Origin: Bacillus rhizoplanae
GTDB lineage: Bacteria; Bacillota; Bacilli; Bacillales; Bacillaceae_G
Direction: 5' to 3'
DNA length: 64,000 nucleotides
NCBI RefSeq assembly: GCF_917563915.1
Contig: NZ_CAKJTI010000006.1
Coordinates: 140,886-204,885, forward strand
Position numbers and translations under genes: made by a program. Below the pieces are notes generated by a model. That model made no database searches. It had not been told where the DNA came from and worked only from the letters and a program-made list of their open reading frames with translations. Shown here piece after piece: positions 5,435 through 61,440 of the stretch (its first letter is position 1; the number at the start of each line of letters is the position of its first letter).

Positions 5435-5588
5435 TTTATCCCGCTATTCGCGGGCAGTAAGACCCCCACCTCAAGATTATGAGAAAGCGAAGAAGGTAGG
5501 GGGGATAACTGCCCGTAAAAGCCCGATTGGTTCAACTAACCGTCAGTGGGGGATGAAGAACCTCCCACTGATGGAAGCTTCACTTTAT
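5435..5588 (+). repeat. bcr1 element, full length, 154 bp
   Basis: The element starts TTTATCCCGC and ends TTTCACTTTAT, so it is bounded by TTTAT on both sides. It has the paired arms CGGGCAGT/ACTGCCCG and a CCATCAGTGGG-type terminal hairpin (one arm reads CCGTCAGTGGG). It lies at the junction between the two FbpB-like copies. The bcr1 identity is from known B. cereus-group repeats. Confidence 0.9.
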
Positions 5589-5730
5589 TAAAAAAAGCTT
5601 CTGCAAGACTTTAACAGAATGCATATCCCATACATGATTAGTTAACATAAAATTTTCGAAAAAAATTCCCAGATAATTAATGGTAACTTGGGAAAAATAA
5701 TTTTTCACATAACGTTCAAATAAATAATGT

Positions 5731-5783
5731 TTGAAAAATCAAAAGTTATAGTATTATTTAGGTAAGTCGAATTTTTCGACAAA
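5731..5783 (+). promoter_or_regulatory. Promoter with Spo0A-type box, copy 2
   Basis: TTGAAA (5731) and TATTAT (5752) are 15 bp apart. TTCGACAAA is at 5775-5783. In this copy the box lies in the palindrome GTCGAATTTTTCGAC (5766-5780), adding a second half-site. Confidence 0.5.
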
Positions 5784-5818
5784 TAAAGACAAATTTTTTA
5801 TAAAGATCGAGAAGTTTT

Positions 5819-5848
5819 ATGGTTGTATTTTTCATTCTACATCTTTGA
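5819..5848 (+). CDS. Possible 9-aa leader peptide MVVFFILHL, copy 2
   Basis: This is the same nine residues as at 5213, with one synonymous difference. The distance to the next start is again 27 bases. Confidence 0.3.
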   Translation: MVVFFILHL

Positions 5849-5875
5849 TACCAAAGGAAATAAGGAGGAATGATT

Positions 5876-6025
5876 ATGACAAAAAAGCCCCGTAAATTAC
5901 TCAATAAATCATTTAAAGAATTAGTACAAGAAAATAAACAACAGATACTTAATGATAAACAAGAATTGGAACGAATTGAACAACGAATTGAACAACGTTA
6001 TATAATTACAAAACCAGCCTCATAA
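5876..6025 (+). CDS. FbpB-like small basic protein, copy 2
   Basis: This 49-aa paralogue of the 5270 gene differs at only a few residues: R5P, S10N, H42Y and a swap near the C-terminus (IKTPAS to ITKPAS). Several other codon differences are silent, so the coding frame looks to be under selection. ATG 5876 follows AAGGAGG. It converges on the stop-interrupted gene at 6042. Confidence 0.75.
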   Translation: MTKKPRKLLNKSFKELVQENKQQILNDKQELERIEQRIEQRYIITKPAS

Positions 6026-6036
6026 TGGCTGGTTTT
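6009..6036 (+). terminator. Terminator of FbpB-like copy 2
   Basis: AAAACCAGCC and GGCTGGTTTT pair around TCATAAT and are followed by TTCTTT. Confidence 0.85.
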
Positions 6037-6041
6037 TTCTT

Positions 6042-6680
6042 TCACTGAAATACTTGAGGGAACTGCTTTACTATTCCTTCAGTAAGCGCATCCGCCATTT
6101 CTAAGGCTTCCTTCTCAATTTTGTCATACAATTGCACACCTGATTGATAATCTTTCTTTAGCATGGATACTGCCTCAGCTTTCGTCAATGCTAGATGCTC
6201 ATAAAACATTTTTCTAAATTTTTCTTTAGGTATATAAGGATTGATACTGCTTAAGAATTCAACAATTTCGTCTCCATTGGCGTACCATTTTTTCTCTGCG
6301 ATTGATGCAGCGTGTTGATCGCCAGCCTTTGCTGCCTTGACAAGGTCTGCGGCGATTACTAAGTGGTCTTTTATCAAATTACTATATTTTGTCGCTGCAT
6401 TTTGACCGTAGAAAGGTTTGAGTGAATTACCCATATCTGGAGCGTTTTTAAGGAGTCGCGTAATAGTAACGTTAACATCTGGTAAATTAAAAATAATGCT
6501 AATGATAGCCAGTCTTGTCCAAGCGACATGCTGTTCCTATAGTGAGCGCATATAACTTTTCAAATCAACTTCATTTTTACTGATACGGTAATTTCGTGCC
6601 ATTGGAAACGCAGATTGCGGATCCCAATTTACATAAGGTATATCATATGTGAAATAATTGGATTGCCAATAAGGGTACAT
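6042..6680 (-). pseudogene. Interrupted gene for a ~212-aa helical protein (in-frame amber stop)
   Basis: A minus-strand frame runs from ATG 6680, behind AAAGGAGTG, to the TGA at 6044-6042. It is broken once by TAG at 6539-6537 (codon 48). Upstream it reads MYPYWQSNYFTYDIPYVNWD; downstream it continues EQHVAWTRLAIISIIFN in the same frame with no length change. The residue before EQHVAWTR is probably an original Trp (TGG to TAG). An internal ATG at 6434 could give a 130-aa product but lacks a good ribosome site. Related cereus-group proteins, as I recall them, are uncharacterised and about this length. It could be a real nonsense mutation or a sequencing error. Confidence 0.75.
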
Positions 6681-6853
6681 AATGATTACACTCCTTTGAA
6701 CATATATACCTCACGATATGATAAACTTCATTCTTAAGTTCCGTGTCCAAATGCTTTTATACAGTTAGGAAATCTAGGATGTTCCAGAAATGTATCTATA
6801 ATAACACTCAGTCGGTGATACGTGGCACTAACGTTATAATAACCTTCAAATGG

Positions 6854-6897
6854 AATCTTAAGGTTGGGGCCTTACTGCTCGCGAATAGTGGGATAAA
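6854..6897 (-). repeat. bcr1 fragment (5' end only)
   Basis: The sequence matches the reverse complement of the bcr1 start (CGCGAATAGTGGGATAAA), with part of the first stem region. The rest of the element is missing. Confidence 0.65.
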
Positions 6898-6909
6898 AAA
6901 GAATGCTCA

Positions 6910-6995
6910 TTAGTTGGCGTCCTCTTCATCTTCTATAACGATTTCTCCGTTTTTTTGTTCATATCGTTTGATTTCTTCAATCTCATTACGTTCGT
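6910..6995 (-). pseudogene. Short coding remnant ending at a bcr1 element
   Basis: On the minus strand the frame YERNEIEEIKRYEQKNG...EDEEDAN ends in TAA at 6912-6910. It is entered directly from the TTTAT end of the bcr1 at 6996-7153. If bcr1 and one TTTAT are removed, an ATG created across the junction (ATGATTTTATACGAA) would start a 31-aa frame overlapping the end of the DUF523 gene. It may be a small gene or an out-of-frame remnant of the DUF523 C-terminus. Confidence 0.35.
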
Positions 6996-7153
6996 ATAAA
7001 GTGAAACTTCCATCAGTGGGGGTTTTTCTTTATCCCCCCACTGATGGTTAGTTGAACCAATCGTGTTCTTACGGGTAGTTATCTCCCACCTATCTTCTAT
7101 GTTTTCTCAGAACCTTGAGGTGAGAGTTTTACTGCCTGTTAGTGCGGGATAAA
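6996..7153 (-). repeat. bcr1 element, full length, 158 bp
   Basis: It is inverted relative to 5435, flanked by ATAAA on both sides (the complement of TTTAT). It keeps the CCATCAGTGGG hairpin and the core TTGGTTCAACTAACC. Its right end supplies the last residues and stop codon of the DUF523 gene. Confidence 0.9.
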
Positions 7154-7591
7154 ATCATCTTCCGAAATAACCGTAAAACCGTGTCGTCTGAATAATGCAG
7201 TTGTAACGCCGTAACCGTCTTGTTTTTGACCATTAAATTCACCTGTGTAAATGACGGAACTTCCGCAAGATGGACTGCGTTCTTTCAGAATAATATACTC
7301 AGGATTTAAATCTTTTATTTGATGTAATGCTTTGTAGGCTCCCGCAATAAAGATTTCTGTCACGTCATTTCCCTTTTGGTCTATTACTTTTGCAGTTCCG
7401 TTCAATACATCGTCACCGTTTCCTCCGATAATTTCGGCAGGTGTACGAGGCGTTGGTAATCCGCCTAATACTTCCGGGCAAATAAGAATTGCTTCTTCTT
7501 TTTCTAGTAGTTCTTGAATCTTTGCAACGAGATTATCATTTCCGTCATAACGACAAGCAATTCCAGCTAAACATGCACTAATTACAATCAT
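7139..7591 (-). CDS. DUF523 family protein with bcr1-derived C-terminus
   Basis: This is a 150-aa cytoplasmic protein of the DUF523 family, whose function is unknown. Typical features are the N-terminal SACLAGIACRYDG (residues 5-17), CPEVLGGLPTPR near residue 39 and KERSPSCGSS near residue 108. The three conserved Cys suggest metal or redox chemistry. ATG 7591 follows CTGAGGTGA. The last codons (ATC CCG CAC TAA) lie inside the bcr1 element, so the native end after EDDF has been replaced by IPH. Family length is nearly complete, so it is probably still functional. Confidence 0.8.
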   Translation of the reverse strand: MIVISACLAGIACRYDGNDNLVAKIQELLEKEEAILICPEVLGGLPTPRTPAEIIGGNGDDVLNGTAKVIDQKGNDVTEIFIAGAYKALHQIKDLNPEYIILKERSPSCGSSVIYTGEFNGQKQDGYGVTTALFRRHGFTVISEDDFIPH

Positions 7592-7669
7592 TTTTTCACC
7601 TCAGTTTGATGAATTTACTTTCATCATACAACAAAATCTTTCGCCACTTTTATGCTTTTCTTCTTATTT

Positions 7670-7723
7670 ATAAAGTGAAACTTCCATCAGTGGGGGGGGA
7701 TTGCCTGCGAATAGCGGGATAAA
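7670..7723 (-). repeat. bcr1 deletion derivative, 54 bp
   Basis: Both ends of bcr1 are present (ATAAAGTGAAAC... and ...GCGAATAGCGGGATAAA), but about 100 bp of the middle is missing. The join is in a run of Gs. It lies directly upstream of the winged-helix gene. Confidence 0.8.
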
Positions 7724-7737
7724 CAGGGGTGATAAAT

Positions 7738-8643
7738 ATGAGTAAACTGTATGAGTTAATGAAAGAATATAGTGAGTTTCAAAGTAAAGAAGAGTTTAAT
7801 ACATATCAAAAGCAAATTTTGACGCGGTATCAAGCTCATATGAATAAAACAGATTTTCTCGTGATTCGTTTGTTAGGAAGGTATGCAATAAACGAAAAGC
7901 AAAAAACGGTTGGTGTCGCATGTCCTTTAATGGAAACAATTGCAGTGAAAATAGGGAAGAGTGTACGGACTGTACGCCGTTCTGTCGCAAAGCTTGAGCA
8001 GCTTAGTATTATTAAGCGTGTGTTCACGAAGGAAAGATATAAGCGAGGGGGATATAGTGCGAGTTTGTATGTGTTTCGTAAGCGGGCAGTTGACCGCATG
8101 AGTGACCGTATGCAAATGACCGCATGTGAAAATAGCGAGAATGCAGGAGAGTGTAAGAAGGAGCAGTTGAATGAGGAAACGGAAATTAGTGTTTATGAAA
8201 ACAATTTAAAGATACAACAGAAAATAAATACGTATGATATGGACGAAACGTATTGCCGTCATGATATTCCAGTGCGATTTGTAGATGCGATTTCACCAAT
8301 GTCTCGTCATCCACAAACGATTAATTTTGCTTGGAGCAAAGTGGAACTTGCTTACAAAAAGAGTGGTTTGCTTGAGGGAGGGTTGTTGTGGGAGCAGCTT
8401 ATGACGCATGATGATATACAAATGCAAATCATTCGGCGGACAAAAAGTGTTGTAAGGGCGTATAAGTACGGTGAGATTCGCAAAGATTTCGGTGCGCTCT
8501 TATATAGTACGATGCAGGCGTTATTTTTAGATATTGCATTAGAATGGGGAGCGGCAGTGAGAAGGCGCAGTAGGGCTTCGCTATATGATCCATTTGAAAG
8601 TAAACAAAGAAAAGAGTCATGCGTGTCAGGCATGACTCTCTAG
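7738..8643 (+). CDS. Winged-helix DNA-binding protein, unknown role
   Basis: This 301-aa protein starts at ATG 7738, seven bases after AGGGGTG; a GTG three codons upstream is less well placed. Residues ~55-100 (ACPLMETIAVKIGKSVRTVRRS) form a helix-turn-helix like that of plasmid or phage replication initiators and DnaD-type proteins. A charged linker follows, then a C-terminal helical domain. No catalytic motif is seen. It is related to chromosomal wHTH proteins of the cereus group with no assigned role. The coding end doubles as the terminator of the convergent MFS gene. The start lies only 14 bp past a bcr1 remnant. Confidence 0.7.
   Translation: MSKLYELMKEYSEFQSKEEFNTYQKQILTRYQAHMNKTDFLVIRLLGRYAINEKQKTVGVACPLMETIAVKIGKSVRTVRRSVAKLEQLSIIKRVFTKERYKRGGYSASLYVFRKRAVDRMSDRMQMTACENSENAGECKKEQLNEETEISVYENNLKIQQKINTYDMDETYCRHDIPVRFVDAISPMSRHPQTINFAWSKVELAYKKSGLLEGGLLWEQLMTHDDIQMQIIRRTKSVVRAYKYGEIRKDFGALLYSTMQALFLDIALEWGAAVRRRSRASLYDPFESKQRKESCVSGMTL
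8613..8639 (-). terminator. Terminator of the MFS gene, inside the wHTH coding end
   Basis: AGAGTCATGC and GCATGACTCT form a perfect 10-bp stem. On the minus strand it is followed by TTTTCTTTG. It overlaps the last codons of the plus-strand gene. Confidence 0.75.
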
Positions 8644-8645
8644 TT

Positions 8646-9896: not shown

Positions 9897-10015
9897 ATGA
9901 ATCCCTTTCTGTCATATGTCTTTTTATCTTTGTTAACAGTTTCTAATCTTTCTATACAGATACTTTCCATTGTATTCAAAAAAGCAGAATTTGCCCAGCG
10001 GATTTTTGAAGCATA

Positions 10016-10047
10016 AAAATAAGAAGGTGCCGAGGCACCTTCTTATT
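10016..10047. terminator. Bidirectional terminator
   Basis: AATAAGAAGGTGCC and GGCACCTTCTTATT pair across GA with T- and A-rich flanks. It separates the MFS gene from the methyltransferase island. Confidence 0.85.
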
Positions 10048-10109
10048 TTACACTTTAAACTAACGCAATATAAATATCAACTTGTGCATGATTTGGATCG
10101 AAAGTTCGT

Positions 10110-10361: not shown

Positions 10362-10415
10362 GTGTGTATATTTTGTAGTAATTGACCATAATTATTTGTA
10401 AGAGGTGATTAATGT

Positions 10416-10943: not shown

Positions 10944-10968
10944 TATTAAACTGTTCCATTAATAGACA

Positions 10969-12290: not shown

Positions 12291-12367
12291 TGGTTTCAGT
12301 AAAACTAAGTTGGTATCCTATATCAATCTATTTTTAATGAATATTTCCTTCTACTTTTCGATATTAT

Positions 12368-12433
12368 CCAGTTCCAGCGGCTCGGCCACTCGCATGTCGA
12401 ACATCGTCGAAGGGTCTTTATATTATGTCGAAG
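12368..12433 (+). repeat. Second repeat family, unoccupied copy (bcr1 target)
   Basis: The sequence ...GTCGAAGGGTCTTTAT|ATTATGTCGAAGCGCCGATA matches the flanks of the bcr1 copies at 40595 and 61294, but here no bcr1 is inserted. Only one TTTAT is present. Confidence 0.8.
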
Positions 12434-12552
12434 CGCCGATATATCACAAATAACGCCGATAAATGCACCATTTCCGCCGATATCTTACAAATAGCGCCGA
12501 TAAATGCACCATTTCCGCCGATATATCACAAATAACGCCGGTATATCGGCGG
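12434..12552 (+). repeat. 41-bp tandem repeat, about 2.9 units
   Basis: Units start CGCCGATA at 12434, 12475 and 12516. Each is two ~20-bp half units (CGCCGATATATCACAAATAA / CGCCGATAAATGCACCATTTC, 20 and 21 bases). It ends in GGTATATCGGCGG, which can pair with a unit start. Confidence 0.85.
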
Positions 12553-12562
12553 ACACGTAAAA

Positions 12563-15583: not shown

Positions 15584-15691
15584 TTTATCCCGCTATTCGC
15601 GGGCAGTAAGCCCCCACCTCAAGATTCAGAGAGAAGCAAAGAAGCTAGGTGGGGGATGAAGAAAACCCCACTGACGGAAGTTTCACTTTAT
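15584..15691 (+). repeat. bcr1 element, short 108-bp form
   Basis: Both TTTAT ends are present, but the segment between two GTGGGGGAT direct repeats of the full element is missing. That removes the second arm ACTGCCCG and the core TTGGTTCAACTAACC. Confidence 0.9.
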
Positions 15692-17393: not shown

Positions 17394-17543
17394 ATAAAGT
17401 GAAACTTCCATCAGTGGGTCTTCATCTCCCAATGATGGTTAGTTGAACCAATCGGGCTTTTACGGGCAGTTATTCCCCGCCTATCTTCTTCGCTTCTCTC
17501 AACCTTGAGGTGGGGGTCTTACTGCCCGTTAGTGCGGGATGAA
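17394..17543 (-). repeat. bcr1 element, near full length, 150 bp
   Basis: Inverted orientation, starting ATAAAGTGAAAC; the far end reads GGGATGAAA, so one flank ATAAA is degraded. The core and central stem are intact. Confidence 0.85.
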
Positions 17544-21430: not shown

Positions 21431-21614
21431 ACGTTTTCATATAAAAATGAGGAAGATTGTAAGACAAGCATGAAATTTCTCTTATTTTATGATAGAATTT
21501 TATTCCGTGCGGGATAAGTATGCGCTTTCAAATTGAAAGTTTAGAAGGATTACGTTTTATCCATACATGTTAAAAGTAGTGAAAAAATATCAAAATATTC
21601 GTAATGTTCAAAGA

Positions 21615-21691
21615 TAAGCCCGGAAGTGGCTGTTGATTCAGCCGATCATCAGTACAGGAGAATTTCTACTGATGAAAGTTTCATTTTCTAT
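21615..21691 (+). repeat. Decayed bcr1 relic (3' half)
   Basis: AAGCCCG..., a diverged core, the hairpin CATCAGTA...TACTGATG and the end AAAGTTTCATTTTCTAT match the bcr1 3' half in order. The hairpin pairing survives despite base changes. Confidence 0.55.
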
Positions 21692-25165: not shown

Positions 25166-25554
25166 CAATTCGCCTTCAAGTATTAATTATTTTAGGTGTA
25201 TTAGTAGGATTGATTATTTTTACAAACTTAGTGCGTAAAGAGAAATTAGACCTGAAGTATGTACTGACATGGTTTGGCGTTTTAATCGGTATTCTCATCA
25301 TTGGAATCTTGCCAAAAACGATTAATGTTGTATCGGATATGTTAGGTGTTGCAACGCCAATTAACGCATTGTTTTTTTTCGGATTTATATTTGTAACATG
25401 TGTATTGTTCTTTTTAACGATTGTTGTTTCGAGATCCTCTGCTCGTATTAAAGAGTTGACGCAAATCGTAGCGATTCATCAGCATGAAAATGAAAAAATG
25501 AAGAAAAAATTGGATAACTATTATAAAGAAGAGAACCAAAAAGTGACTATGTAA
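25162..25554 (+). CDS. DUF2304 membrane protein
   Basis: This 130-aa protein has three helices (residues ~5-22, ~33-50, ~65-90) and a C-terminal coiled-coil-like tail. DUF2304 proteins typically follow GT2 genes and may anchor or regulate them. It overlaps the GT2 stop as ATGA. The stop TAA shares its last base with the flanking ATAAA of an inverted bcr1. Confidence 0.85.
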   Translation: MTIRLQVLIILGVLVGLIIFTNLVRKEKLDLKYVLTWFGVLIGILIIGILPKTINVVSDMLGVATPINALFFFGFIFVTCVLFFLTIVVSRSSARIKELTQIVAIHQHENEKMKKKLDNYYKEENQKVTM

Positions 25555-25690
25555 TAAAGTGAAATTTTTCATCGGAGCGCTTTCCCTACTGGTGGTTAGT
25601 TGAACGAATCGGACTCTAACAGGAAACCTAACTTTTTGGATTGCTCAGGACTTTGAGTGGAGGGCTTATTGCCTATTAGAGTGAGATAAA
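25554..25690 (-). repeat. bcr1 element, diverged, 137 bp
   Basis: Inverted, with ATAAA at both ends (25554-25558 and 25686-25690). The core GGTTAGTTGAACGAATCGG and the ends are recognisable, the middle strongly changed. Confidence 0.75.
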
Positions 25691-38448: not shown

Positions 38449-38605
38449 TTTATCCCACATTAACGGGCAGTAAGCCCTCCACCTTAAGATTCAGAGAGAA
38501 GCAAAGAAGATAGGTGAGGGATAACTGCCCGTAAAAGCCCGATTGGTTCAACTAACCATCAGTGGGGGATGAAGAAAACCCCCACTGATGGAAGTTTCAC
38601 TTTAT
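38449..38605 (+). repeat. bcr1 element, full length, 157 bp
   Basis: TTTATCCCAC...TTTCACTTTAT with all helices. It overlaps the bioY stop codon: the right TTTAT provides TAA on the minus strand. The left flank GGTTTCAC looks like the end of another bcr1, suggesting a second insertion next to an older one. Confidence 0.92.
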
Positions 38606-40490: not shown

Positions 40491-40565
40491 TTTTTCGTGC
40501 TGTATTCATATTGAGAAGATGAAAAAGTTCACTTCTTGGTGTGATCCAGTACTAGCGAATGGACT

Positions 40566-40745
40566 ATTCATATGTTGAACATTGTCGAAGGGTCTTTATC
40601 CCGCATTAACGGGCAGTAAAGGATGGAGAAGAGCGGGGAAGAAAACAGCCCGTAAAAGCCCGATTGGTTCAACTAACCATCAGTGAGAAAAGCGTCACTG
40701 ATGGAAGTTTCACTTTATATCCTGTCGAAGCGCCGATATATTGAG
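40566..40745 (+). repeat. Second repeat family, copy interrupted by bcr1
   Basis: ATGTTGAACATTGTCGAAGG(GTCTTTAT) and, after the bcr1, ATCCTGTCGAAGCGCCGATA match the unoccupied sequence at 12368-12440. Confidence 0.85.
40595..40718 (+). repeat. bcr1 element, 124-bp form, nested
   Basis: TTTAT-bounded; the first stem and core are conserved and the central CCCCCACCT/AGGTGGGGG stem is replaced by GGATGGAGAAGAGCGGGGAA. It differs from the copy at 61294 by an AC-AG/AC-TG change only. Confidence 0.92.
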
Positions 40746-40749
40746 AATA

Positions 40750-40785
40750 TGAAAAAACCGACTGCTTCAAGCAGTCGGTTTCTCA
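40750..40785 (-). terminator. Terminator of glyQS
   Basis: AACCGACTGCTT and AAGCAGTCGGTT pair; on the minus strand TTTTTTC follows. Confidence 0.9.
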
Positions 40786-45393: not shown

Positions 45394-45714
45394 CTCCCCT
45401 CAGTAGTTTTTTTTATTGTTTGATACAATTATGTAATAAACACAATTAAAGTCATTATAAAGTAGAAAAATGTAAGATGTAAATGAAAGCAATTGTTTTG
45501 TCATATTTTCCGCACAAATGAAATGAGTTATTTTCTTGTTTTTGAAAATATTTGCTGTTATTTGACATATATATAAGATACATCTCATTGAACCAATCGG
45601 GCTCTTATGGACGCTTCTTCTTTCTCAATTAGGATTCATGCACGTAAACGTGTTCGGGGTTATTTGTTGTGATATAATGGATGAATATGGAAGAATTTAT
45701 AAGGAAGGGATCGT
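45394..45714. other. Divergent region of the transporter and kapD
   Basis: 321 bp, AT-rich. It holds a bcr1 fragment at ~45588-45640 and a TATAAT at 45671-45676 without a matching -35, probably for kapD. No coding remnant is seen. Confidence 0.4.
45588..45640 (-). repeat. bcr1 core fragment
   Basis: TTGAACCAATCGGGCTCTTA(TGGACGCTTCTTC) matches the conserved core and the start of the CGGACGCT-type stem. Both ends are lost. Confidence 0.5.
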
Positions 45715-46907: not shown

Positions 46908-47084
46908 ATGATGCCTTTATACTTTCCAGAAGACAAGACAGAATATATTATACCTGCCATTGTATGTGTGTTATTTCTTATTGGAGCAGTTGCTACGTGG
47001 CGTATGTTTATTAAATCATCAGAACGAGAAGCAGAGAATTTGCAAGAGATGGAAAAACGTATTATGGGACGAGAAAAACGATAA
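46908..47084 (+). CDS. Small single-pass membrane protein, unknown function
   Basis: This is a 58-aa protein: MMPLYFPEDKTEYIIPAIVC..., one helix at residues ~13-32, then a charged C-terminal tail ending MGREKR. ATG 46908 is seven bases after AAAGGAGTG. The TAA stop lies within the ATAAA that begins an inverted bcr1-like element, so the original end may have been changed by the insertion. Confidence 0.7.
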   Translation: MMPLYFPEDKTEYIIPAIVCVLFLIGAVATWRMFIKSSEREAENLQEMEKRIMGREKR

Positions 47085-47200
47085 AGTGAAACTTCCTTTT
47101 GGAGTGCTTTTCTCCAAAAGGTTAGTTGAACCAATCGGGCACTTACGGACGCTTCTTCATCGAGAATTGGCTGAAGTATAGCGTCTATAAGTAGCGGGAG
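47081..47200 (-). repeat. bcr1-like element, CTTTTGGAG subfamily
   Basis: It begins ATAAAGTGAAACTTCC and carries CCTTTTGGAG/CTCCAAAAGG in place of the CCATCAGTGGG hairpin, and GACGCT/AGCGTC in place of GGCAGT/ACTGCC. The core TTAGTTGAACCAATCGGG is unchanged. Confidence 0.8.
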
Positions 47201-47264
47201 TTTTTGTATGTTTCCTTCTAGGCTCGGACAATATAAGAACAGAATGAGTCTGGAGGGAATACGG

Positions 47265-48071: not shown

Positions 48072-48179
48072 TTTATCCCGCTATTCGCGGGCAGTAAGAT
48101 CCCCACCTCAAGATTGAGAGAAGCGAAGAAGATAGGTGGGGGATGAAGAAAACTCTAACTGATGGAAATTTCACTTTAT
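48072..48179 (+). repeat. bcr1 element, short 108-bp form
   Basis: Same deletion as at 15584: the segment between the two GTGGGGGAT repeats is missing. TTTAT is present at both ends. Confidence 0.9.
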
Positions 48180-48255: not shown

Positions 48256-48338
48256 TTTATCCCGATATTTACGGGCGGTAAGACCCTCACTTTAAGATTC
48301 AGAGAGAAACGAAGAAGATAGGTGGGGGATAAAGAAAG
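48256..48338 (+). repeat. bcr1 5' fragment abutting the response-regulator gene
   Basis: It starts TTTATCCCGATA and matches as far as AGGTGGGGGATAAAGAAA; the hairpin end is missing. The ribosome site AAAGGGG of the next gene is at the break. Confidence 0.8.
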
Positions 48339-48346
48339 GGGATTAC

Positions 48347-49021
48347 ATGAAAAAGAAGCTTCTATATATTGAGGACAATAAGGAAATTGGTGCTTGGGTA
48401 TGTGAAGATTTATTCGAACGGGGCTATCAGGTAACTTGGATTACTTCAGGTGAAGGTGCCATTGAACATATGGCGGAAATCGACCTAGTAATCCTTGATA
48501 TTATGCTTCCAGGATTGGATGGCTTTTCAGTTGGACAGCGATTGAAAAAGGAATTTCCAAAGACTCCTATTTTAATGCTATCCGCCAGATCATCGATTGA
48601 TGATAAGTTGCAGGGGCTGCAGTTTGCAGATGATTATATGACAAAGCCTTTTCACCCCGATGAACTCGCGGCACGGGTGGAAGTGCTTCTCAGACGGTTT
48701 GACAAGATATGCTCCCCGCTCATTGTACTATCACATCTCCGCATTTATTTGAATGAGAACCGCATTGTGGATTCCAGATCGAATAATGATGTCATACTTA
48801 CGGCTAAGCAGTTTCAAATTTTCACCTATTTACTCCGTCATCCAAACCAAATCTTAACAAAAGAACAAATTTATGAGGCTGTATGGGGAAATCCATATAT
48901 TGAAGGAGATAAAACCTTAATGGTACATATCCGCCATTTACGCGAAAAAATAGAGCAGGAGCCAAGTCAACCACAAATAATTGAAACAATTCGCGGCATT
49001 GGATATAGGGTGAAACAATGA
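48347..49021 (+). CDS. Response regulator, OmpR/PhoB family
   Basis: This 224-aa protein has a receiver domain with the phospho-acceptor in LVILDIMLPGLDG (~Asp 53), conserved Ser/Thr and Lys in LSARS and MTKPF, and a C-terminal winged-helix domain (TAKQFQIFTYLLRHPNQIL; VHIRHLREKIE; IRGIGYRVK). The GLxxGADDY motif is one residue short (GLQFADDY). ATG 48347 follows AAAGGGG. It overlaps the histidine kinase gene by 4 bp. Codon choice here looks richer in G+C than in the neighbours. Confidence 0.92.
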   Translation: MKKKLLYIEDNKEIGAWVCEDLFERGYQVTWITSGEGAIEHMAEIDLVILDIMLPGLDGFSVGQRLKKEFPKTPILMLSARSSIDDKLQGLQFADDYMTKPFHPDELAARVEVLLRRFDKICSPLIVLSHLRIYLNENRIVDSRSNNDVILTAKQFQIFTYLLRHPNQILTKEQIYEAVWGNPYIEGDKTLMVHIRHLREKIEQEPSQPQIIETIRGIGYRVKQ

Positions 49022-52473: not shown

Positions 52474-52515
52474 TTCAATCAAAGAATGTTGGAGTGTATA
52501 ATAACCAGGCTTAAG

Positions 52516-53810: not shown

Positions 53811-54062
53811 ATGGGGACATATGAGAAAATGATAGATTTTGTGAAGAGTTGGGATCCGTTTCGAATGGGGCCAGAATTTTATGAAACAGAAGCAAGTGAC
53901 ATCGTCTACATTGTAAGTACATTTGATGATGCGAAATATATCGCAAAGAAAATACAGCACATTTATTTGCTATCATTTGAAAAAACATTACCTATTGAAA
54001 AGTGTCAATGGTTAGCAGAACAATTGTTACTATTAAAAGGTGGCGGAAGTTGTACGCTATAA
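53811..54062 (+). CDS. yugE: DUF1871 protein YugE
   Basis: This 83-aa acidic cytoplasmic protein (MGTYEKMIDFVKSWDPFRMG) matches the DUF1871/YugE family in length and start. Function unknown. The stop TAA lies in the ATAAA at which the downstream bcr1-like array begins, so the last residues (GSCTL) may have been modified by insertion. Confidence 0.8.
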   Translation: MGTYEKMIDFVKSWDPFRMGPEFYETEASDIVYIVSTFDDAKYIAKKIQHIYLLSFEKTLPIEKCQWLAEQLLLLKGGGSCTL

Positions 54063-54525
54063 AGCGAAACTTCCTTTCGGAGCGTTCTTCTCCAAAAGGT
54101 TAGTTAAGCCAATCGGGCTCTTACAGACGGTTTGTTGTTTCTTCGTAGCTAAGCATCTTACCGACTGTTAGAGCGGGATAAAGTGAAACTTCCTTTTGGA
54201 GCGTTCTTCTCCAAAAGGTTAGTTGAACCAATCGGGTTCTTACAGACGGTTTGTTGTTTCTTCGTAGCTAAGCATCTTACCGACTGTTAGAGCGGGATAA
54301 AGCGAAACTTCCTTTTGGAGCGTTCTTCTCCAAAAGGTTAGTTGAACCTACGGGTTCTTACAGACGGTTTGTTGTTTCTTCGTAGCTAAGCATCTTACCG
54401 ACTGTTAGAGCGGGATAAAGCGAAACTTCCTTTTGGAGCGTTCTTCTCCAAAAGGTTAGTTGAACCTACGGAAGCTTGTCCCACGAGAGTTGTCTTAAGA
54501 ATAGTGTCCGTAAATAGCAGGAGAA
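54059..54525 (-). repeat. Tandem array of four bcr1-like units, period 119 bp
   Basis: Units begin AAAGYGAAACTTCC at 54061, 54180, 54299 and 54417 (119, 119 and 118 bp apart). Units 1-3 are nearly identical; unit 4 loses its second half after GAACCTACGG. The subfamily hairpin is CCTTTTGGAG-type, and the second helix is CAGTCGGT/ACCGTCTG. Each unit ends GAGCGGGATAAA, which is the start of the next. Confidence 0.95.
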
Positions 54526-54528
54526 AGA

Positions 54529-54583
54529 GGCTGATATCTAAAAGTTCATTGAAGTTGGACTTTTGAATATCGGCCTTTTTTTA
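54529..54583 (+). terminator. Terminator after the repeat array
   Basis: GGCTGATAT...ATATCGGCC with inner AAAGTTC/GACTTTT pairing is followed by TTTTTTT. Confidence 0.7.
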
Positions 54584-54652
54584 TCCCGCTATTCGCGGGC
54601 AGTAAGGCTCTCATCTTAAAGTTCTGAGAAATCAAAGAGGGTAGTTACTGCA
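54580..54652 (+). repeat. bcr1 fragment (5' half)
   Basis: TTTATCCCGCTATTCGCGGG followed by a diverged AAGGCTCTCATCTTAAAG and TTACTGC matches the first half only. It lies at the end of the terminator T-run. Confidence 0.75.
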
Positions 54653-54670
54653 CACATGCGACAGGTGTGT

Positions 54671-55510
54671 TCAATTTGCTAAGAAGGTCATAATTTCTTC
54701 ATATACGTGTTCCGGCTTTTCTTCTGGTAATAGATGTCCTGTGTTTTCATAAGAGATAAAGTGTGAATGCTGCAGGTCATTGTGTAATCGGTGTCCAACA
54801 TTAATAGGAACAACACGATCTTTTTCTCCCCAAATAAGCAAAGTAGGTGTTTTAATTTTTTGTAGTTCTTTTGATGTTAAGTCTCCTTCGCGATCTCGAA
54901 TCATACGGGTTAGTGCAGGAAAGATGCGATTATCATAAAAAGGTGCTGCATAGCCTTGCATCATTTCGTCATCGATTAAAGAATGATCGTGAACAACATT
55001 CATTAAATTATAGATGATGCCTCGTCGTATAATCCAATTTTTTACGTATAAATGAAAGAACGGTAAATAAGAAGTGTAGATAAGCGGCAAATTTGCTCGT
55101 GATAAATAGCTTGAACTGCATAAAAGAACTGTCTTTTGAATTAAATCAGGCCGCAACCGGCTTATATATAACGCAATTTGTCCGCCCATTGAATGCCCTA
55201 CTAAAATAACGTTTTTTTTCTGTAAATGTTCGATGAGTTCAATAACAATCGTTGCGAGGTTTTGATAAGAATATGTGAAATGAAATGGTTTATCACTTTT
55301 TCCAAATGGCGGTAAATCTAGAGCAATCACGTTCCCTTGCTGAGCTAAAAGCGGAATGAGCCGCCGATAGCTAAAGGTCGAAGAGAGAAAGCCATGAATT
55401 AAAACAAATGTTGGTTTTTCTTCTGCACAAAAAGACTGATAGAGCTCATAATGAACCGTAATCCCTCTTGTAGAAAAGGTGAAGTGAGGGAGTTGAACTT
55501 CGTTTTCCAT
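54671..55510 (-). CDS. yugF: Alpha/beta hydrolase YugF
   Basis: This 279-aa hydrolase has the nucleophile elbow VGHSMGGQ (Ser ~99), acid WGEKDRVVP (~residue 226) and base His in NTGHLLPEEKP (~256). The oxyanion region LIHGFLSS is near residue 39. Substrate unknown. I chose ATG 55510, eight bases after GGAG; two upstream starts overlap that site. Its place in the yug cluster gives the name. Confidence 0.85.
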   Translation of the reverse strand: MENEVQLPHFTFSTRGITVHYELYQSFCAEEKPTFVLIHGFLSSTFSYRRLIPLLAQQGNVIALDLPPFGKSDKPFHFTYSYQNLATIVIELIEHLQKKNVILVGHSMGGQIALYISRLRPDLIQKTVLLCSSSYLSRANLPLIYTSYLPFFHLYVKNWIIRRGIIYNLMNVVHDHSLIDDEMMQGYAAPFYDNRIFPALTRMIRDREGDLTSKELQKIKTPTLLIWGEKDRVVPINVGHRLHNDLQHSHFISYENTGHLLPEEKPEHVYEEIMTFLAN

Positions 55511-55645: not shown

Positions 55646-55649
55646 TTGA

Positions 55650-56618: not shown

Positions 56619-56637
56619 GGTTTCATCCCCTTTTTAT

Positions 56638-56734
56638 ATTATCCCGCTACTTTTGGGCAGTAAGAGCCCGATTAGGCTGGCTTTCCATCAGTGGGGGATG
56701 AAGCAAAACCCCACTGATGGAAGTTTCACTTTAT
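56638..56734 (+). repeat. bcr1 element, short form, first of a head-to-tail pair
   Basis: It ends ATGGAAGTTTCACTTTAT and shares this TTTAT with the next element. Its start is ATTATCCCGC and a middle piece is missing. Confidence 0.8.
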
Positions 56735-56851
56735 CCCGCTCTAACGGACGCTATTTCTTAAAGCCTTTTCGTGGAAGGAGCGTCCGTAAGAGCCCGATTG
56801 GCTCAACTAACCTTTCGGAGAAGAACGCTCCAAAAGGAAGTTTCACTTTAT
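56730..56851 (+). repeat. bcr1-like element, CTTTTGGAG subfamily, second of pair
   Basis: It starts TTTATCCCGCTCTAACGGAC and ends TTTCACTTTAT. P1 is CGGACGCT/AGCGTCCG and P2 is CTTTCGGAG/CTCCAAAAGG. The core is AGAGCCCGATTGGCTCAACT. Confidence 0.9.
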
Positions 56852-56941
56852 TGTTACATAATTATCTGAAAAAATCTTCTTTTCAAACAGGAAAAGCTGT
56901 CTGTATAATTTAGAAAATACACAAAAAGAGAAAGGGCGAGT

Positions 56942-57439
56942 ATGATGACAGAAAAAGAATTAGAATTGTTAGCCTGTCTTGAAAAGAGTAGCCGATTATC
57001 TGAAGAAACATTAGCCAAAATGTTAAACATAGATGTAGAAGAAGTGATAACGATCCTTGAAAAATTAGAAAAAGAAAAAGTGATTGTAGATTATGTTACG
57101 CTGATTGATTGGACAAAGGTAAAAGAACATACAGGTTTAACAGCAATGATTGATGTGAAAGTTACACCGAAGCACGGCGTTGGATTTGACGCGGTAGCGG
57201 AGCAAATTTACCGATATCCAGAGGTGAAGTCAGTTTATTTAATGTCAGGTACATATGACCTTTCCATTACTGTAGAAGGAAAAGGGATGGCTGAAGTTGC
57301 GACATTTGTAGCGGAAAAGTTAGCGACAATTGAATCTGTTGTATCGACGACAACGCATTTTATTTTGAAAAAGTATAAACATGAAGGAATTATATATGAA
57401 AACAAAGATGATGATAAGCGAATTGTGGTGGTACCATGA
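56942..57439 (+). CDS. alaR: Lrp/AsnC family transcriptional regulator AlaR
   Basis: This 165-aa regulator has an N-terminal helix-turn-helix (residues ~5-50) and a C-terminal RAM/ferredoxin-like effector domain (VYLMSGTYDLSITVEG near residue 100). It overlaps the alaT aminotransferase start by 4 bp (ATGA), the alaR-alaT order of B. subtilis, so it likely controls alanine synthesis genes. ATG 56942 follows AAAGGGCGAG. Confidence 0.88.
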   Translation: MMTEKELELLACLEKSSRLSEETLAKMLNIDVEEVITILEKLEKEKVIVDYVTLIDWTKVKEHTGLTAMIDVKVTPKHGVGFDAVAEQIYRYPEVKSVYLMSGTYDLSITVEGKGMAEVATFVAEKLATIESVVSTTTHFILKKYKHEGIIYENKDDDKRIVVVP

Positions 57440-58626
57440 GTAAATTTGAATTATCAAAAGTAGCACAATCTTTACAACCGTCCGGTATTCGTAAATTTTT
57501 TGATTTAGCGGCGGGTATGAAAGGTGTTATTTCATTAGGTGTTGGCGAGCCGGACTTTGTAACGCCTTGGAATGTAAGGCAAGCTTGCATTCGTTCATTA
57601 GAAGAAGGATATACGGCATATACTGCGAATGCTGGATTATTAGAGCTTCGCGAAGAAATTGCAAAATATTTAGAAAAACAATTTGCAGTATCTTATGATC
57701 CAAAAGAAGAAATTATTGTAACGGTTGGGGCAAGTCAGGCGTTAGATGTAGCGATGCGTGCAATTGTAAATCCTGGTGATGAAGTTATTATTATTGAACC
57801 AAGCTTTGTATCATATGCACCGCTTGTTACGCTGGCTGGCGGGGTACCTGTACCTATTTCTACATCTCCAACCGATGAATTTAAAGTACAGCCGGAGCAG
57901 ATTGAAGCTGCCATTACATCGAACACGAAAGCGATTTTATTATGTTCGCCAAACAATCCGACAGGAACGCTCTTAAATAAAGAAGAATTAGAAAAACTTG
58001 CGGTCATTATAGAGAAATACAATTTAATCGTACTATCCGATGAGATTTATGCAGAGCTTGTCTATGATGAGACATATACAAGCTTTGCGAGCGTGAAACA
58101 TATGCGTGATCATACAATTTTAATCTCTGGTTTTTCAAAAGGGTTTGCGATGACAGGTTGGCGCCTTGGTTTGATCGCAGCCCCTCAACATTTTGCGGAA
58201 TTGATGTTAAAGATCCATCAATATTCTATGATGTGTGCGCCGACGATGTCGCAATTTGCAGCATTAGAAGCACTTCGCTCTGGAGAACAAGAAGTTGTTC
58301 GAATGCGTGAGAGCTATAAACAACGCCGAAACTTTATGGCGACTTCATTTAATGAAATGGGACTAGATTGTCATATGCCAGGCGGAGCATTCTATGTATT
58401 TCCTTCAATTCGTTCAACAGGATTATCTTCGGCGGAATTTGCCGAACGTTTATTATTAGCGGAAAAAGTCGCTGTTGTACCTGGAAGTGTGTTTGGCGAG
58501 GGCGGAGAAGGATTTATTCGCTGTTCATACGCAACATCACTTGAACAACTTATGGAAGCGATGAAACGCATGAAACGATTTATGGAGAACGAAAAAAGGA
58601 CAAAACATAATACGTTTTGTCCATAA
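57436..58626 (+). CDS. alaT: Alanine-type aminotransferase AlaT
   Basis: This 396-aa fold-type I transaminase has SGFSKGFAMTGWRLG (PLP Lys ~237), NNPTGTLL near residue 175, SDEIYAELVYD near 203 and RCSYATS at the C-terminus. It is translationally coupled to alaR. The last codons form a GGACAAAAC/GTTTTGTCC hairpin without a T-run, perhaps a weak terminator or an mRNA end stabiliser. Confidence 0.9.
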   Translation: MSKFELSKVAQSLQPSGIRKFFDLAAGMKGVISLGVGEPDFVTPWNVRQACIRSLEEGYTAYTANAGLLELREEIAKYLEKQFAVSYDPKEEIIVTVGASQALDVAMRAIVNPGDEVIIIEPSFVSYAPLVTLAGGVPVPISTSPTDEFKVQPEQIEAAITSNTKAILLCSPNNPTGTLLNKEELEKLAVIIEKYNLIVLSDEIYAELVYDETYTSFASVKHMRDHTILISGFSKGFAMTGWRLGLIAAPQHFAELMLKIHQYSMMCAPTMSQFAALEALRSGEQEVVRMRESYKQRRNFMATSFNEMGLDCHMPGGAFYVFPSIRSTGLSSAEFAERLLLAEKVAVVPGSVFGEGGEGFIRCSYATSLEQLMEAMKRMKRFMENEKRTKHNTFCP

Positions 58627-58783
58627 AAGGGGGGGAATACTAGAAAGCCATGTGTTAGTATTTTATCCTGACATTTGAAGATTTATACATGTTAAGGAAA
58701 ATTTTTTCATGATTTTTGAATGAAATGTTAGTAAGTGGTATAATTTACTAATACAAAAGGTAAAACATATGGGAGTGTTTCTT

Positions 58784-59128
58784 ATGTCAGACAAATACAC
58801 AACAGGAGTGGTTGTGAAGGGAAAAGTGACAGGAATTCAAGATTACGGTGCATTCGTTGCATTAGATGAAGAAACGCAAGGTCTTGTGCATATATCTGAA
58901 ATTACAAATGGGTATGTGAAAGATATTCATGATTTTTTAAAAGTTGGGGATGCAGTAGAAGTAAAGGTGCTTTCAGTTAATAGAGAGAACGGAAAAATGA
59001 GTCTATCATTGAAGGCTGCCAAACGTAAACAAGGAAAAGTGCGTATACCGAATCCTTCTGCAAATGGATTTAACACATTGCGAGAAAAGTTAACAGAGTG
59101 GATTGAAGAATCTCAAATCACAAAATAA
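58784..59128 (+). CDS. yugI: S1 RNA-binding domain protein YugI
   Basis: This 114-aa protein is an S1 domain (VVKGKVTGIQDYGAFVALDE; GLVHISEITNGYV; VKVLSVNRENGKMSLSLKA) plus a short basic tail. It corresponds to B. subtilis YugI/general stress protein 13, which associates with ribosomes. I chose ATG 58784, nine bases after GGGAGTG. It has its own terminator. Confidence 0.92.
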   Translation: MSDKYTTGVVVKGKVTGIQDYGAFVALDEETQGLVHISEITNGYVKDIHDFLKVGDAVEVKVLSVNRENGKMSLSLKAAKRKQGKVRIPNPSANGFNTLREKLTEWIEESQITK

Positions 59129-59158
59129 AAGCAGGGAGCATAGCTCTCTGCTTTTATT
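59127..59158 (+). terminator. Terminator of yugI
   Basis: AAAGCAGGGAGC and GCTCTCTGCTTT pair around ATA, followed by TATTTC. Confidence 0.8.
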
Positions 59159-59284
59159 TCTTGTTCACCAAATAATCGGTGAATGTGATACATTATGATA
59201 TAAAATAATCAAACATTTCTTTTGCTGCATTTGTAATCAGTATAAAGAAACATCCGTATGTCAGAAGTTAGTAAAGCATCATAG

Positions 59285-59314
59285 ATCTCCACTTGTGTGA
59301 AAACAAGTGGAGAT
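59285..59314. repeat. 11-bp hairpin between yugI and yuzA
   Basis: ATCTCCACTTG and CAAGTGGAGAT form a perfect stem around TGTGAAAA. There is no clear T-run in either direction; it may be a weak terminator for yuzA. Confidence 0.6.
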
Positions 59315-59351
59315 GCATGTTTTATAATATCATTTTAGAATGCTATTAGAT

Positions 59352-59585
59352 TTATCGTACTTCACGTGCTTCTGGGTGTGTTCCAAGTTCTTCAGAAGGT
59401 TTAAATAATAAGCCAAGGTTAATTAAACCTGAAATACCCACAATACCATAGATAATTCGAGCAAGTGCTGTATCTTGCCCTCCGAAGATAGCTGCTACTA
59501 AATCGAATTGAAAGAAACCAATGAGTCCCCAGTTTACTGCGCCGATAATCGTAAATACTAAGGCAATGCGTTGTAATGTACTCAT
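59352..59585 (-). CDS. yuzA: DUF378 membrane protein YuzA
   Basis: This 77-aa protein has two helices (residues ~4-22 and ~42-62) with the motif GAVNWGLIGFFQFDLVAAIFG, typical of the DUF378 family. Function unknown. ATG 59585 follows GGAGGG; the in-frame upstream sequence is non-conserved. Its neighbours yugI and pgi match the B. subtilis order. Confidence 0.88.
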   Translation of the reverse strand: MSTLQRIALVFTIIGAVNWGLIGFFQFDLVAAIFGGQDTALARIIYGIVGISGLINLGLLFKPSEELGTHPEAREVR

Positions 59586-59866
59586 TTTAAGCAGTCCCTC
59601 CTTAAATGATGAAGCAAAAACGAGATACATTTGCTCGTTTAATGAAGCTTCCTTTATAGAATGGATACCTTTTGTTGTTCTTATACCCAAAAAATTAAAA
59701 TTTCTCATTGTATACTTGTCTAGACCGAAAAAAATGGAAGTTATGACGATTTTGTAAAAAAAATAAAATGGCTACGCTTACAATTTGTAGTTCGCTTGAT
59801 TTACAACTGTGGTTTCGCTAAAGTGAAGACAGAAATACATATACATATTGTATTGGAGGGAAAAAG

Positions 59867-61219
59867 ATGAGCACACATGTAACGTTTGACTATTCAAAGG
59901 CGTTATCGTTCATCAGTGAACAAGAATTAACATATTTACGTGATGCAGTAAAAGTATCACACCATGCAATTCATGAAAAAACAGGAGCAGGAAATGACTT
60001 CTTAGGTTGGGTAGAACTTCCGCTTGCATACGATAAAGAGGAATTTGCTCGCATTCAAAAATGCGCTGAGAAAATTAAAAATGACTCTGACATTTTACTT
60101 GTTATTGGGATTGGTGGTTCTTACTTAGGAGCGCGAGCAGCAATTGAAATGCTAAACCATTCTTTCTACAACACGCTGTCTAAAGAACAACGCAAAACTC
60201 CACAAGTGCTATTTGTTGGACAAAACATTAGCTCCACTTACATGAAAGATTTAATGGATGTATTAGAAGGTAAGGACTTCTCTGTTAACGTTATTTCTAA
60301 ATCAGGTACAACAACAGAGCCTGCAATTGCATTCCGCATTTTCCGTAAGCTATTAGAAGAGAAATACGGAAAAGAAGAAGCGCGTAAACGTATTTATGCA
60401 ACGACAGATAAAGCGCGCGGTGCTTTAAAAACATTAGCTGACGAAGAAGGATACGAAACATTCGTGATTCCAGATGATGTTGGTGGTCGCTTCTCTGTAT
60501 TAACACCAGTTGGTTTATTGCCGATTGCTGTAAGTGGTTTAAATATTGAAGAAATGATGCAAGGGGCAGCTGCAGCTAGTGATGATTTTGCGAAATCAGA
60601 ACTTGAAGAAAATCCAGCTTATCAATATGCAGTTGTACGCAATGCTTTATACAATAAAGGTAAAACAATTGAAATGCTTGTTAACTACGAACCAGCACTT
60701 CAATATTTTGCTGAATGGTGGAAACAATTATTTGGTGAGAGTGAAGGAAAAGATCAAAAAGGTATTTTCCCATCTTCTGCAAACTTCTCAACTGACCTGC
60801 ATTCTTTAGGTCAATACATTCAAGAAGGACGCCGTGATCTATTTGAAACAGTTCTAAAAGTAGGAAAATCTACACACGAACTAAAAATTGAATTAGATGA
60901 GAACGATTTAGATGGATTAAATTACCTTGCTGGTGAAACAGTGGACTTTGTTAACACAAAAGCATACGAAGGAACATTGCTTGCACATAGCGATGGCGGT
61001 GTACCAAACTTAATCGTCAATATTCCTGAACTAAATGAGTATACATTCGGTTATCTTGTATACTTCTTCGAAAAAGCATGTGCGATGAGCGGCTACTTAT
61101 TAGGCGTAAATCCATTTGACCAACCAGGCGTAGAAGCATATAAGAAAAACATGTTCGCTCTACTTGGAAAACCAGGATTCGAAGAACTAAAAGCAGAACT
61201 AGAAGAACGTTTGAAATAA
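59867..61219 (+). CDS. pgi: Glucose-6-phosphate isomerase
   Basis: This 450-aa glycolytic enzyme interconverts glucose-6-P and fructose-6-P. Signatures are [18 protein letters not shown] near residue 204 and [11 protein letters not shown] with [10 protein letters not shown] near residues 352-385; [11 protein letters not shown] near residue 83 is also typical. ATG 59867 follows TGGAGGG. A terminator follows. Confidence 0.96.
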
Positions 61220-61254
61220 GAAAAGCTGTTGGGATTATCCCAACAGCTTTTTTT
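61219..61254 (+). terminator. Terminator of pgi
   Basis: AAAAGCTGTTGGGAT and ATCCCAACAGCTTTT pair around T, followed by TTTT. Confidence 0.9.
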
Positions 61255-61267
61255 TGATGAATGTGCG

Positions 61268-61440
61268 TGTGTGTCGAATATTGCCGAAGGGTCTTTATCC
61301 CGCATTAACGGGCAGTAAAGGATGGAGAAGAGCGGGGAAGAAAACTGCCCGTAAAAGCCCGATTGGTTCAACTAACCATCAGTGAGAAAAGCGTCACTGA
61401 TGGAAGTTTCACTTTATCTCATGTCGAAGCGCCGATATAT
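61268..61440 (+). repeat. Second repeat family, copy interrupted by bcr1
   Basis: GTGTGTCGAATATTGCCGAA(GGGTCTTTAT) on the left and CTCATGTCGAAGCGCCGATA on the right of the bcr1 match 12368-12440. Confidence 0.85.
61294..61417 (+). repeat. bcr1 element, 124-bp form, nested
   Basis: Nearly identical to the 40595 copy, in the same target sequence at the same position, bounded by TTTAT. Confidence 0.93.

Follow-up and report, generated by a model that had tools for sequence, protein, structure and literature searches.

What is the fold of a small repeated element selected for, and how far does the element reach beyond the bacteria in which it is known? The question is raised by a stretch of 64,000 nucleotides from Bacillus rhizoplanae (contig NZ_CAKJTI010000006.1, positions 140,886 to 204,885; hereafter the window), which holds many copies of a TTTAT-flanked element of ~150 nt with a conserved fold, taken to be bcr1. 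An earlier note on this DNA had claimed that paired changes between subfamilies argue for selection on the folded nucleic acid, either as RNA or as a single-stranded substrate of mobilization. The analysis reported here supports selection on the fold, and the evidence leans towards single-stranded DNA. Among the new results is a wider range: small folded elements of this kind form a family that extends through the Bacillales, of which bcr1 is taken as the cereus-group branch.

The primary descriptions of bcr1 are reportedly those of Okstad in 2004, Klevan in 2007 and Kristoffersen in 2011. Passages of a further source portray the element as structured and mobile-like, with a TTTAT motif, a mostly chromosomal location, a mean of 39 copies per strain and a mechanism that is possibly site-specific recombination-like; fork bias is not mentioned in these passages (PMC6542083). 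Its conserved secondary structure is already listed in part of the literature (PMC2267715), and bcr elements are called specific to the Bacillus cereus group in a passage of another paper (PMC8725734).

Distribution in the Bacillales

The exact 21-nt linker that separates the central helix from the terminal hairpin was found in at least 120 stretches of the genome_contigs collection. Among the matches listed, 17 Bacillales genus names occur (Rummeliibacillus, Bacillus, Cytobacillus, Caldibacillus, Peribacillus, Lysinibacillus, Halobacillus, Gottfriedia, Oceanobacillus, Amphibacillus, Metabacillus, Mesobacillus, Neobacillus, Sporosarcina, Anoxybacillus, Fredinandcohnia, and Domibacillus), together with records labelled Paenibacillus and Pseudomonas, and no cereus-group species is named in the titles of the 120 matches listed. 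When 120 genomes of a single order were sampled, 67 had a match to a covariance model of the element (E up to 1e-6, with stricter filters), a count that includes the centre genome, G008. The restriction to the B. cereus group does not hold for bcr1: the family described here shares the TTTAT motif and the structure of the published element and differs in its range, of at least 17 genus names and the 67 genomes of one order. A literature search returned no report of bcr elements outside the B. cereus group, a weak negative, as the primary bcr1 papers were outside its reach.

Copy numbers are very uneven. Matches numbered 131 in Cytobacillus citreus, 79 in Caldibacillus, 64 in Gottfriedia endophytica (G011), 42 in G014, 11 in G005 and 10 in Rummeliibacillus POC4. 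Within the family of Gottfriedia, 6 of 19 genomes had matches, two of them 64 and 42 and four of them 1 or 2, with none in the other thirteen. The idea that G014 is itself a cereus-group genome was dropped, its matching stretches being only ~65–82% identical to the window. With one window copy as the query, 4 of 72,556 plasmid records and none of 50,697 phage records matched; a single exact 18-mer match was obtained in viral contigs.

Some records labelled as Gram-negative also contain bcr1-like sequence, namely L063, L101 (Pseudomonas sp. ISL-84) and CP079755.1 (Klebsiella grimontii). These records are probably mislabelled or contaminated, transfer being an alternative.

Fold and covariation

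The elements are ~120–160 nt long, with two helices kept by the window copies and three present in long copies. In the orientation of the element, TTTAT is followed by C[CG]C[GA][CG] and a few bases that end in TAA in most copies, and then by a central helix (consensus CGGGCAGT/ACTGCCCG). In long copies an inner helix (CCCCCACCT/AGGTGGGGG) is nested within it. After the central helix come TAAAAGCCCGATTGGTTCAACTAA, the terminal hairpin (CCATCAGTGGGGG/CCCCCACTGATGG), AAGTTTCAC and a second TTTAT. Both ends have subterminal hairpins, and CTAA precedes the terminal hairpin on its 5' side. The same helices are recovered by alignment-free folding of the copy at 38449–38605, with z = −8.5 for DNA and −7.4 for RNA; its bottom strand folds too (z = −6.8).

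The subfamily forms named in the earlier note were searched exactly in the window, each copy being read on its own strand. The terminal hairpin CCATCAGTGGG/CCCACTGATGG, assigned to two copies, is present in 38449–38605, while the copy at 5435 has CCGTCAGTGGG, with a G.T pair. Similarly, CCTTTTGGAG/CTCCAAAAGG occurs in 47081–47203(−) and in three copies of the array at 54059–54526(−), as claimed, and is missing from two other copies to which it had been ascribed: at 56730, CCTTTCGGAG faces CTCCAAAAGG with one C.A mismatch, and the array copy at 54059 carries CTCCGAAAGG. The hairpins CATCAGTGA/TCACTGATG (40595 and 61294) and CATCAGTA/TACTGATG (21647–21674) are as described. So are the central helix forms, with CGGACGCT/AGCGTCCG in 56730 and CAGTCGGT/ACCGTCTG on the minus strand of the array beside the consensus form; at 47081, 7 of the 8 central pairs are kept, one of these being T.G. 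All these departures are small slips in the earlier account. The near-invariance of the linker was borne out, most linker columns being at least 90% identical over 54 copies, although outside the window this is partly built in because those copies were fetched by exact linker match. Absent from the earlier note are the altered linkers of array copies 54415 and 54297 and the deletion forms at 15584, 48072 and 56641.

Among 11 window copies, 92.2% of the cells of the structure pair, compared with 26–47% when partners are slid by 1–3 columns, and 20 cells are doubly changed versus 7.6 ± 2.0 in shuffled alignments, a number that none of 500 shuffles reached. Two of five measures were not above the shuffles in this small set: the number of pairs with a double change (6, reached by 99 of 500) and that of further pair types (11, reached by 494 of 500). 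In a set of 54 divergent copies, taken from named genomes as well as the window, pairing extends to 84.6% of cells, double changes occur in 25 of 31 pairs, and the 130 doubly changed cells, against 39.1 in shuffles, were reached by none of 500. A tree-based null was also applied, in which each column's changes are redistributed among the branches of a FastTree tree. Ranked against it, the 11,476 column pairs of the 54 copies have structure pairs in all of the first 8 places, with no pair significant in a blind test over all of them.

A larger set, A2, comprised 120 model matches, of which 96 distinct copies from many Bacillales were kept after removal of duplicates and of rows with more than 20% gaps in paired columns. 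Among its 11,026 column pairs, the 9 that rank highest all belong to the structure; 13 of the 30 structure pairs pass correction for 30 tests in a structure-restricted test, and none passes correction for all 11,026. Over the whole structure, 277 cells are doubly changed; 500 phylogeny-preserving nulls averaged 59 such cells and never exceeded 107. The A2 alignment favors the structure because it was fitted to the covariance model, whereas the MAFFT alignments A1 and A4 were not model-fitted. The paired helices co-evolve beyond phylogeny when the structure is taken as a whole, and the earlier claim of selection on a folded nucleic acid is supported at that level and for the 13 pairs of the restricted test.

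One way to account for this covariation is that the fold is selected as RNA, with the copies acting as cis elements in untranslated regions or as small RNAs whose transcript structure is maintained. This explanation, to which the z-score of the RNA fold lends weight, is considered unlikely. In two B. cereus strains, 40.0% and 50.9% of bcr copies, all 18 families counted, are reported to lie in transcripts, but a correlation with decay rate is given for bcr3 only and not for bcr1 (PMC3446304). Among resident copies, G.T (G.U) cells number 96 and A.C cells 153, and in the terminal hairpin of the 96 copies of A2 the figures are 29 and 81. The lack of a G.U excess speaks against selection on the transcript of each copy; the A.C excess in the terminal hairpin looks as if the bottom strand tolerated wobble, or as if mutation were strand-biased. 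Selection as RNA also sits poorly with the deletion forms and decayed copies among those of the window and with the range of 0 to 64 matches per genome within one family.

Rfam assigned no family to bcr1 itself, whether the window was searched at the gathering threshold or six loci with E values of up to 1. The Bacillaceae-1 RNA (RF01690) lies inside bcr1 copies of several genera, mostly in the loop of the terminal hairpin, by Rfam match at L012:132-196, L123:3021-3087 and L146:483-549 and by motif only in L005, L009, L043, L048, L062, L064, L068, L070, L076, L081, L099, L105 and L119. This orphan RNA may be a nested mobile palindrome and not an independent RNA. Extra hairpin modules of ~52 nt, single or in tandem, enlarge the linker in L009, L048 and L146 (Bacillaceae bacterium Marseille-Q3522), and the CAATCGGGC of some modules can pair with the GCCCGATTG of the linker.

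Orientation relative to the replication fork

Replication strands were assigned from the GC skew of 10–15-kb samples. Rummeliibacillus suwonensis has at least 150 matches; 112 of those listed lie on its largest contig, of 2.98 Mb, and 94 of these 112 point with the fork (p = 1.3e-13). In C. citreus, 61 of the 73 matches listed on four large scaffolds do so (p = 5e-9), one copy between opposite skew samples having been left out and the strands of C1 assigned by hand. Peribacillus loiseleuriae (G030), with 47 of 68 co-oriented copies (p = 0.002), shows a weak bias and is the third lineage with fork-aligned orientation. By local skew, 15 of 19 Caldibacillus copies are also co-oriented, and 84 of 133 copies in 8-kb loci are on the G-rich strand (p = 0.003), as are 25 of the 36 that lie between convergent or divergent genes in such loci (p = 0.03).

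The orientation of neighboring reading frames was controlled for, so as to tell an effect of the fork from one of the genes. Flanking frames were called for 83 of the 112 copies of R. suwonensis and 51 of the 68 of P. loiseleuriae, one per cluster; 20 and 15 copies had no fetched flank, and the rest of those left out were within 800 nt of another copy. With one copy per cluster, 70 of 83 are co-oriented with the fork in R. suwonensis (p = 1e-10) and 33 of 51 in P. loiseleuriae (p = 0.049). Between convergent or divergent genes the figures are 29 of 33 and 12 of 12 (together 41 of 45), and between two anti-fork genes the copies still follow the fork in 5 of 6 and 4 of 4 cases. Copies with one or no gene called are co-oriented in 7 of 8 and 0 of 1 cases, and those of R. 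suwonensis between two co-fork genes in 29 of 36. Orientation thus tracks the fork and not the neighboring genes in R. suwonensis, and mostly so in P. loiseleuriae, which speaks against selection on transcripts. In P. loiseleuriae, the bias is complete (16 of 16) where the neighboring genes give no cue or point the other way.

The fork bias is strong but lineage-dependent, and the fork-aligned orientation seen in some species suggests movement as single-stranded DNA. Several observations count against such an account. No bias was found in the window, which has a uniformly G-rich plus strand and carries 10 plus- and 7 minus-strand copies with the array counted once, nor in G014 (17 of 36; of 42 matches, 37 were entered after tandem neighbors had been left out, one of them without a flank), G130 (18 of 39, the strand beyond 3.36 Mb being taken as unchanged) or the main contig of G145 (10 of 19). 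Only 1 of 6 copies is co-oriented in Bacillus sp. J33 and likewise in Neobacillus massiliamazoniensis, by local skew. Between two co-fork genes, P. loiseleuriae copies show no bias (17 of 34), which could reflect the transcription-tied selection expected if the fold acted as RNA. Finally, the fall of the bias with score in R. suwonensis, from 34 of 37 through 32 of 37 to 28 of 37, amounts to no more than a trend (p = 0.11).

KOPS and Chi are oriented motifs of chromosomes, and the orientation of bcr1 might likewise have arisen by later selection on chromosome architecture instead of by a bias at insertion. The restriction of the bias to some lineages is compatible with this possibility, which nevertheless has a slim chance of being correct. 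The better-scoring, presumably younger copies of R. suwonensis are if anything more biased than the others (34 of 37 versus 28 of 37, the same trend), the opposite of what slow sorting would produce, and other genomes hold both orientations freely.

Target sites and junctions

An empty site is available within the window. The copies at 40595 and 61294 sit in a repeat whose paralogue, at 12353–12450, is uninterrupted and has a single TTTAT, whereas the filled sites have TTTAT on both sides. Over 173 nt that include some flank, the two filled loci agree at 96%, so that a single insertion may underlie both. Where both sites are present (92 copies), the left one differs from TTTAT in 31 and the right one in 18 (p = 0.045); both are off-consensus in 5, and none of these 5 shares the same variant. 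The independent variation of the two TTTAT copies argues against target duplication, without excluding one. The case for separate origins of the two sites is weakened in that later mutation could also set them apart.

These sites bear on the proposal that bcr1 is a classical miniature inverted-repeat transposable element (MITE), mobilized by a DDE transposase with duplication of a TTTAT target of 5 bp. The single TTTAT of the empty site fits such a duplication, and unlike sites would also arise if a strict TTTAT target had mutated independently on the two sides. DDE elements are not typically marked by fork bias, and the ends of bcr1 are not inverted repeats (TTTATCCCGC vs. ATAAAGTGAA); together with the absence of shared variants and the more frequent change on the left, this makes the proposal improbable. 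The element has nonetheless been listed among MITEs (PMC3733652) and called MITE-like (PMC3446304) in passages of two papers. Its copies resemble MITEs in being short, non-autonomous and gene-free, and differ from them in lacking terminal inverted repeats and any sign of matching variable duplications.

Copies also occur head to tail, with 15 of 285 distinct right ends running directly into a left end. Outside tandems, the base that follows the right TTTAT is C in 83 cases, T in 80, A in 54 and G in 53, against a background of T 2400, C 1766, A 1616 and G 1170.

The moving enzyme and the proposed mode of movement

The explanation that best fits these observations, with about an even chance of being right, is that the bcr1 family is a non-autonomous element moved as single-stranded DNA in the manner of IS200/IS605 elements by a trans-acting nuclease that recognizes hairpins. 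A single DNA strand would fold into a left hairpin, consisting of the central helix with the inner helix enclosed in long copies, and a right hairpin. An enzyme supplied in trans, possibly of the HUH/Y1 class, would recognize the hairpins and the fixed linker. Its cuts would fall 3' of a TTTAT at each end, the left one supplied by the target and the right one belonging to the element. The strand might then be pasted 3' of a TTTAT elsewhere, with a preference for the single-stranded lagging-strand template at the fork.

That the family works like IS200/IS605 is plausible by analogy. According to parts of two papers, IS608 and ISDra2 have subterminal hairpins, insert 3' of a fixed short target and show lagging-strand orientation (PMC8612924; PMC5934647). 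The bcr1 family shares the subterminal hairpins and would resemble them in its site logic and, in three lineages, in its orientation. It differs in having no tnpA or tnpB inside, none having been found with the same ends in the loci scanned, in a central helix that encloses a long insert, and in the absence of fork bias from several lineages. As to guide sequences, TAA stands 5' of both hairpin feet in most copies, the TATTCG left-end variant lacking it; the presumed right-end guide adjoins an AACT/AGTT pairing, which leaves the guide role putative and weakens the analogy. Membership of IS200/IS605 is not claimed, because a cognate transposase was sought and not found in the loci and genomes scanned and because the fork bias is not general.

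REP sequences and their TnpAREP (RAYT) proteins offer a second comparison, bcr1 being also small, non-autonomous, palindromic and high-copy. REPs end with GTAG, as stated in a portion of one source (PMC3733652); bcr1 differs in having CTAA in place of GTAG and in being larger, with two hairpins and a fixed linker. By their length, the longer Y1_Tnp proteins of several of these genomes may be TnpAREP-like.

Genes for Y1_Tnp proteins were present in 10 of 11 and 6 of 6 genomes examined. The search for the enzyme otherwise yielded results that weigh against an IS200/IS605-like transposase. C. citreus and Caldibacillus gave broken or partial Y1_Tnp matches only and Rummeliibacillus POC4 gave none (draft assemblies). 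No transposase gene with the ends of the element was found in 48 Y1/TnpB loci scanned with the model, comprising 40 of the 55 first fetched and 8 more (Y1_Tnp genes from 11 + 6 genomes, TnpB from 11). Four of the loci hold a match, in L123 and L146 as separate bcr1 copies beside the gene and in L477 and L481 as matches known by coordinates only, and none of the 48 is flanked by bcr1 ends in the manner of a transposon. The ends of both IS200 copies of R. suwonensis differ from those of bcr1. An autonomous relative was also looked for in the collected DNA, where 15 left–right end pairs lie 230–4000 nt apart, the longest at 3.6 kb; the six that were opened had no transposase between the ends, and five further pairs, 7–16 kb apart, were left unopened. 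The opened pairs were rejected as autonomous elements, being neighboring separate copies, nested hairpins or insertions.

Reverse transcription provides another route to a fork bias, since copying by a reverse transcriptase at the fork could also yield a lagging-strand orientation. A structured RNA would in that case be copied into DNA by a group II intron-like or other reverse transcriptase. The combination of a structured element with fork bias is in keeping with this, and of 12 genomes examined 9 have reverse transcriptase genes, those of C. citreus, R. suwonensis, Caldibacillus and P. loiseleuriae among them. The remaining three, G. endophytica G011 with its 64 matches, G005 with 11 and G009, had no reverse transcriptase (RVT_1) match, which rules out a reverse transcriptase as universal helper, and group II introns would not be expected to carry TTTAT at both ends. 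Reverse transcriptase-based mobility accordingly seems distinctly unlikely.

Movement of the family in C. citreus is probably not ancient, as nine distinct full copies are alike (median pairwise identity 0.932, nearest neighbor 0.974). A further proposal, put forward tentatively and rather doubtful, is that a single-strand, fork-coupled mobile system extends across the Bacillales with an enzyme other than the known IS200/IS605 or TnpAREP transposases. No intact Y1 gene appears in C. citreus or Caldibacillus, which hold 131 and 79 matches, so that the enzyme might be of an unrecognized kind, or a host enzyme acting in trans.

Copies in the window

With E values of up to 1 allowed, the covariance model gave 23 matches in the window, a number that includes some reverse-strand echoes of copies already counted. 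The top score, 161 bits, belongs to the full-length plus-strand copy at 38449–38605, with its three helices and linker. Model matches combined with reading of the sequence also identified full-length copies at 5435–5588(+), which has the TATTCG left-end variant, at 6996–7153(−), and at 17394–17543(−), with TTCAT as its left and TTTAT as its right site. Two plus-strand copies of a 124-nt subfamily, at 40595–40718 and 61294–61417, lie inside the same kind of host repeat, whose empty paralogous site, with a single TTTAT and no bcr1, was recognized by reading the plus strand at 12353–12450.

Tandem arrangements are found at two places. The CGGACGCT subfamily copy at 56730–56851(+) has as its left TTTAT the right-end TTTAT of its upstream partner at 56641–56734(+), a copy without the middle. 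The minus-strand array at 54059–54526 consists of four head-to-tail copies, three of the CAGTCGGT type and one mixed (54415–54526), with a period of 118–119 and a TTTAT shared by adjacent copies.

Other copies are diverged or incomplete. A diverged CGGACGCT-type copy is located at 47081–47203(−) and another diverged copy, scoring 65 bits, at 25554–25690(−). The deletion form at 15584–15691(+) lacks the linker and the 3' arm of the central helix and is joined at a GTGGGGGAT repeat; that at 48072–48179(+) is of the same kind, and in both the linker was probably lost between two GTGGGGGAT repeats. The copy with the CATCAGTA/TACTGATG hairpin, at 21556–21689(+), is degenerate (32.8 bits), and those at 48256–48369(+) and 54580–54704(+) have no right end. 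A minimal remnant at 7670–7723(−) retains the left and right ends only, and a remnant with linker at 45573–45676(−) scores weakly, at 19 bits.

The 5435–5588 copy is flanked on both sides by diverged direct copies of ~455 nt (4978–5432 and 5581–6038), 85–92% alike where found. The repeat family that hosts two bcr1 copies and the empty site is made of CGCCGATATA units (12353–12556, 40531–40760, and 61230–61460). Elsewhere in the window, 58592–58654(−) matches Rfam RF02451 (ncr1241, a Bacillus small RNA), and the protein encoded at 59867 matches PDB 3ifs, a glucose-6-phosphate isomerase of B. anthracis, with 976 bits over 450 residues, which makes a B. cereus-group chromosome the most likely source of the window.

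Implications

Until now, bcr1 has passed for a hallmark of the B. cereus group alone. If the family is indeed Bacillales-wide and follows the replication fork, its mechanism would become testable in harmless relatives such as Rummeliibacillus or Cytobacillus. The element would then also serve as a natural recorder of fork direction and as a search handle for a single-strand transposase.

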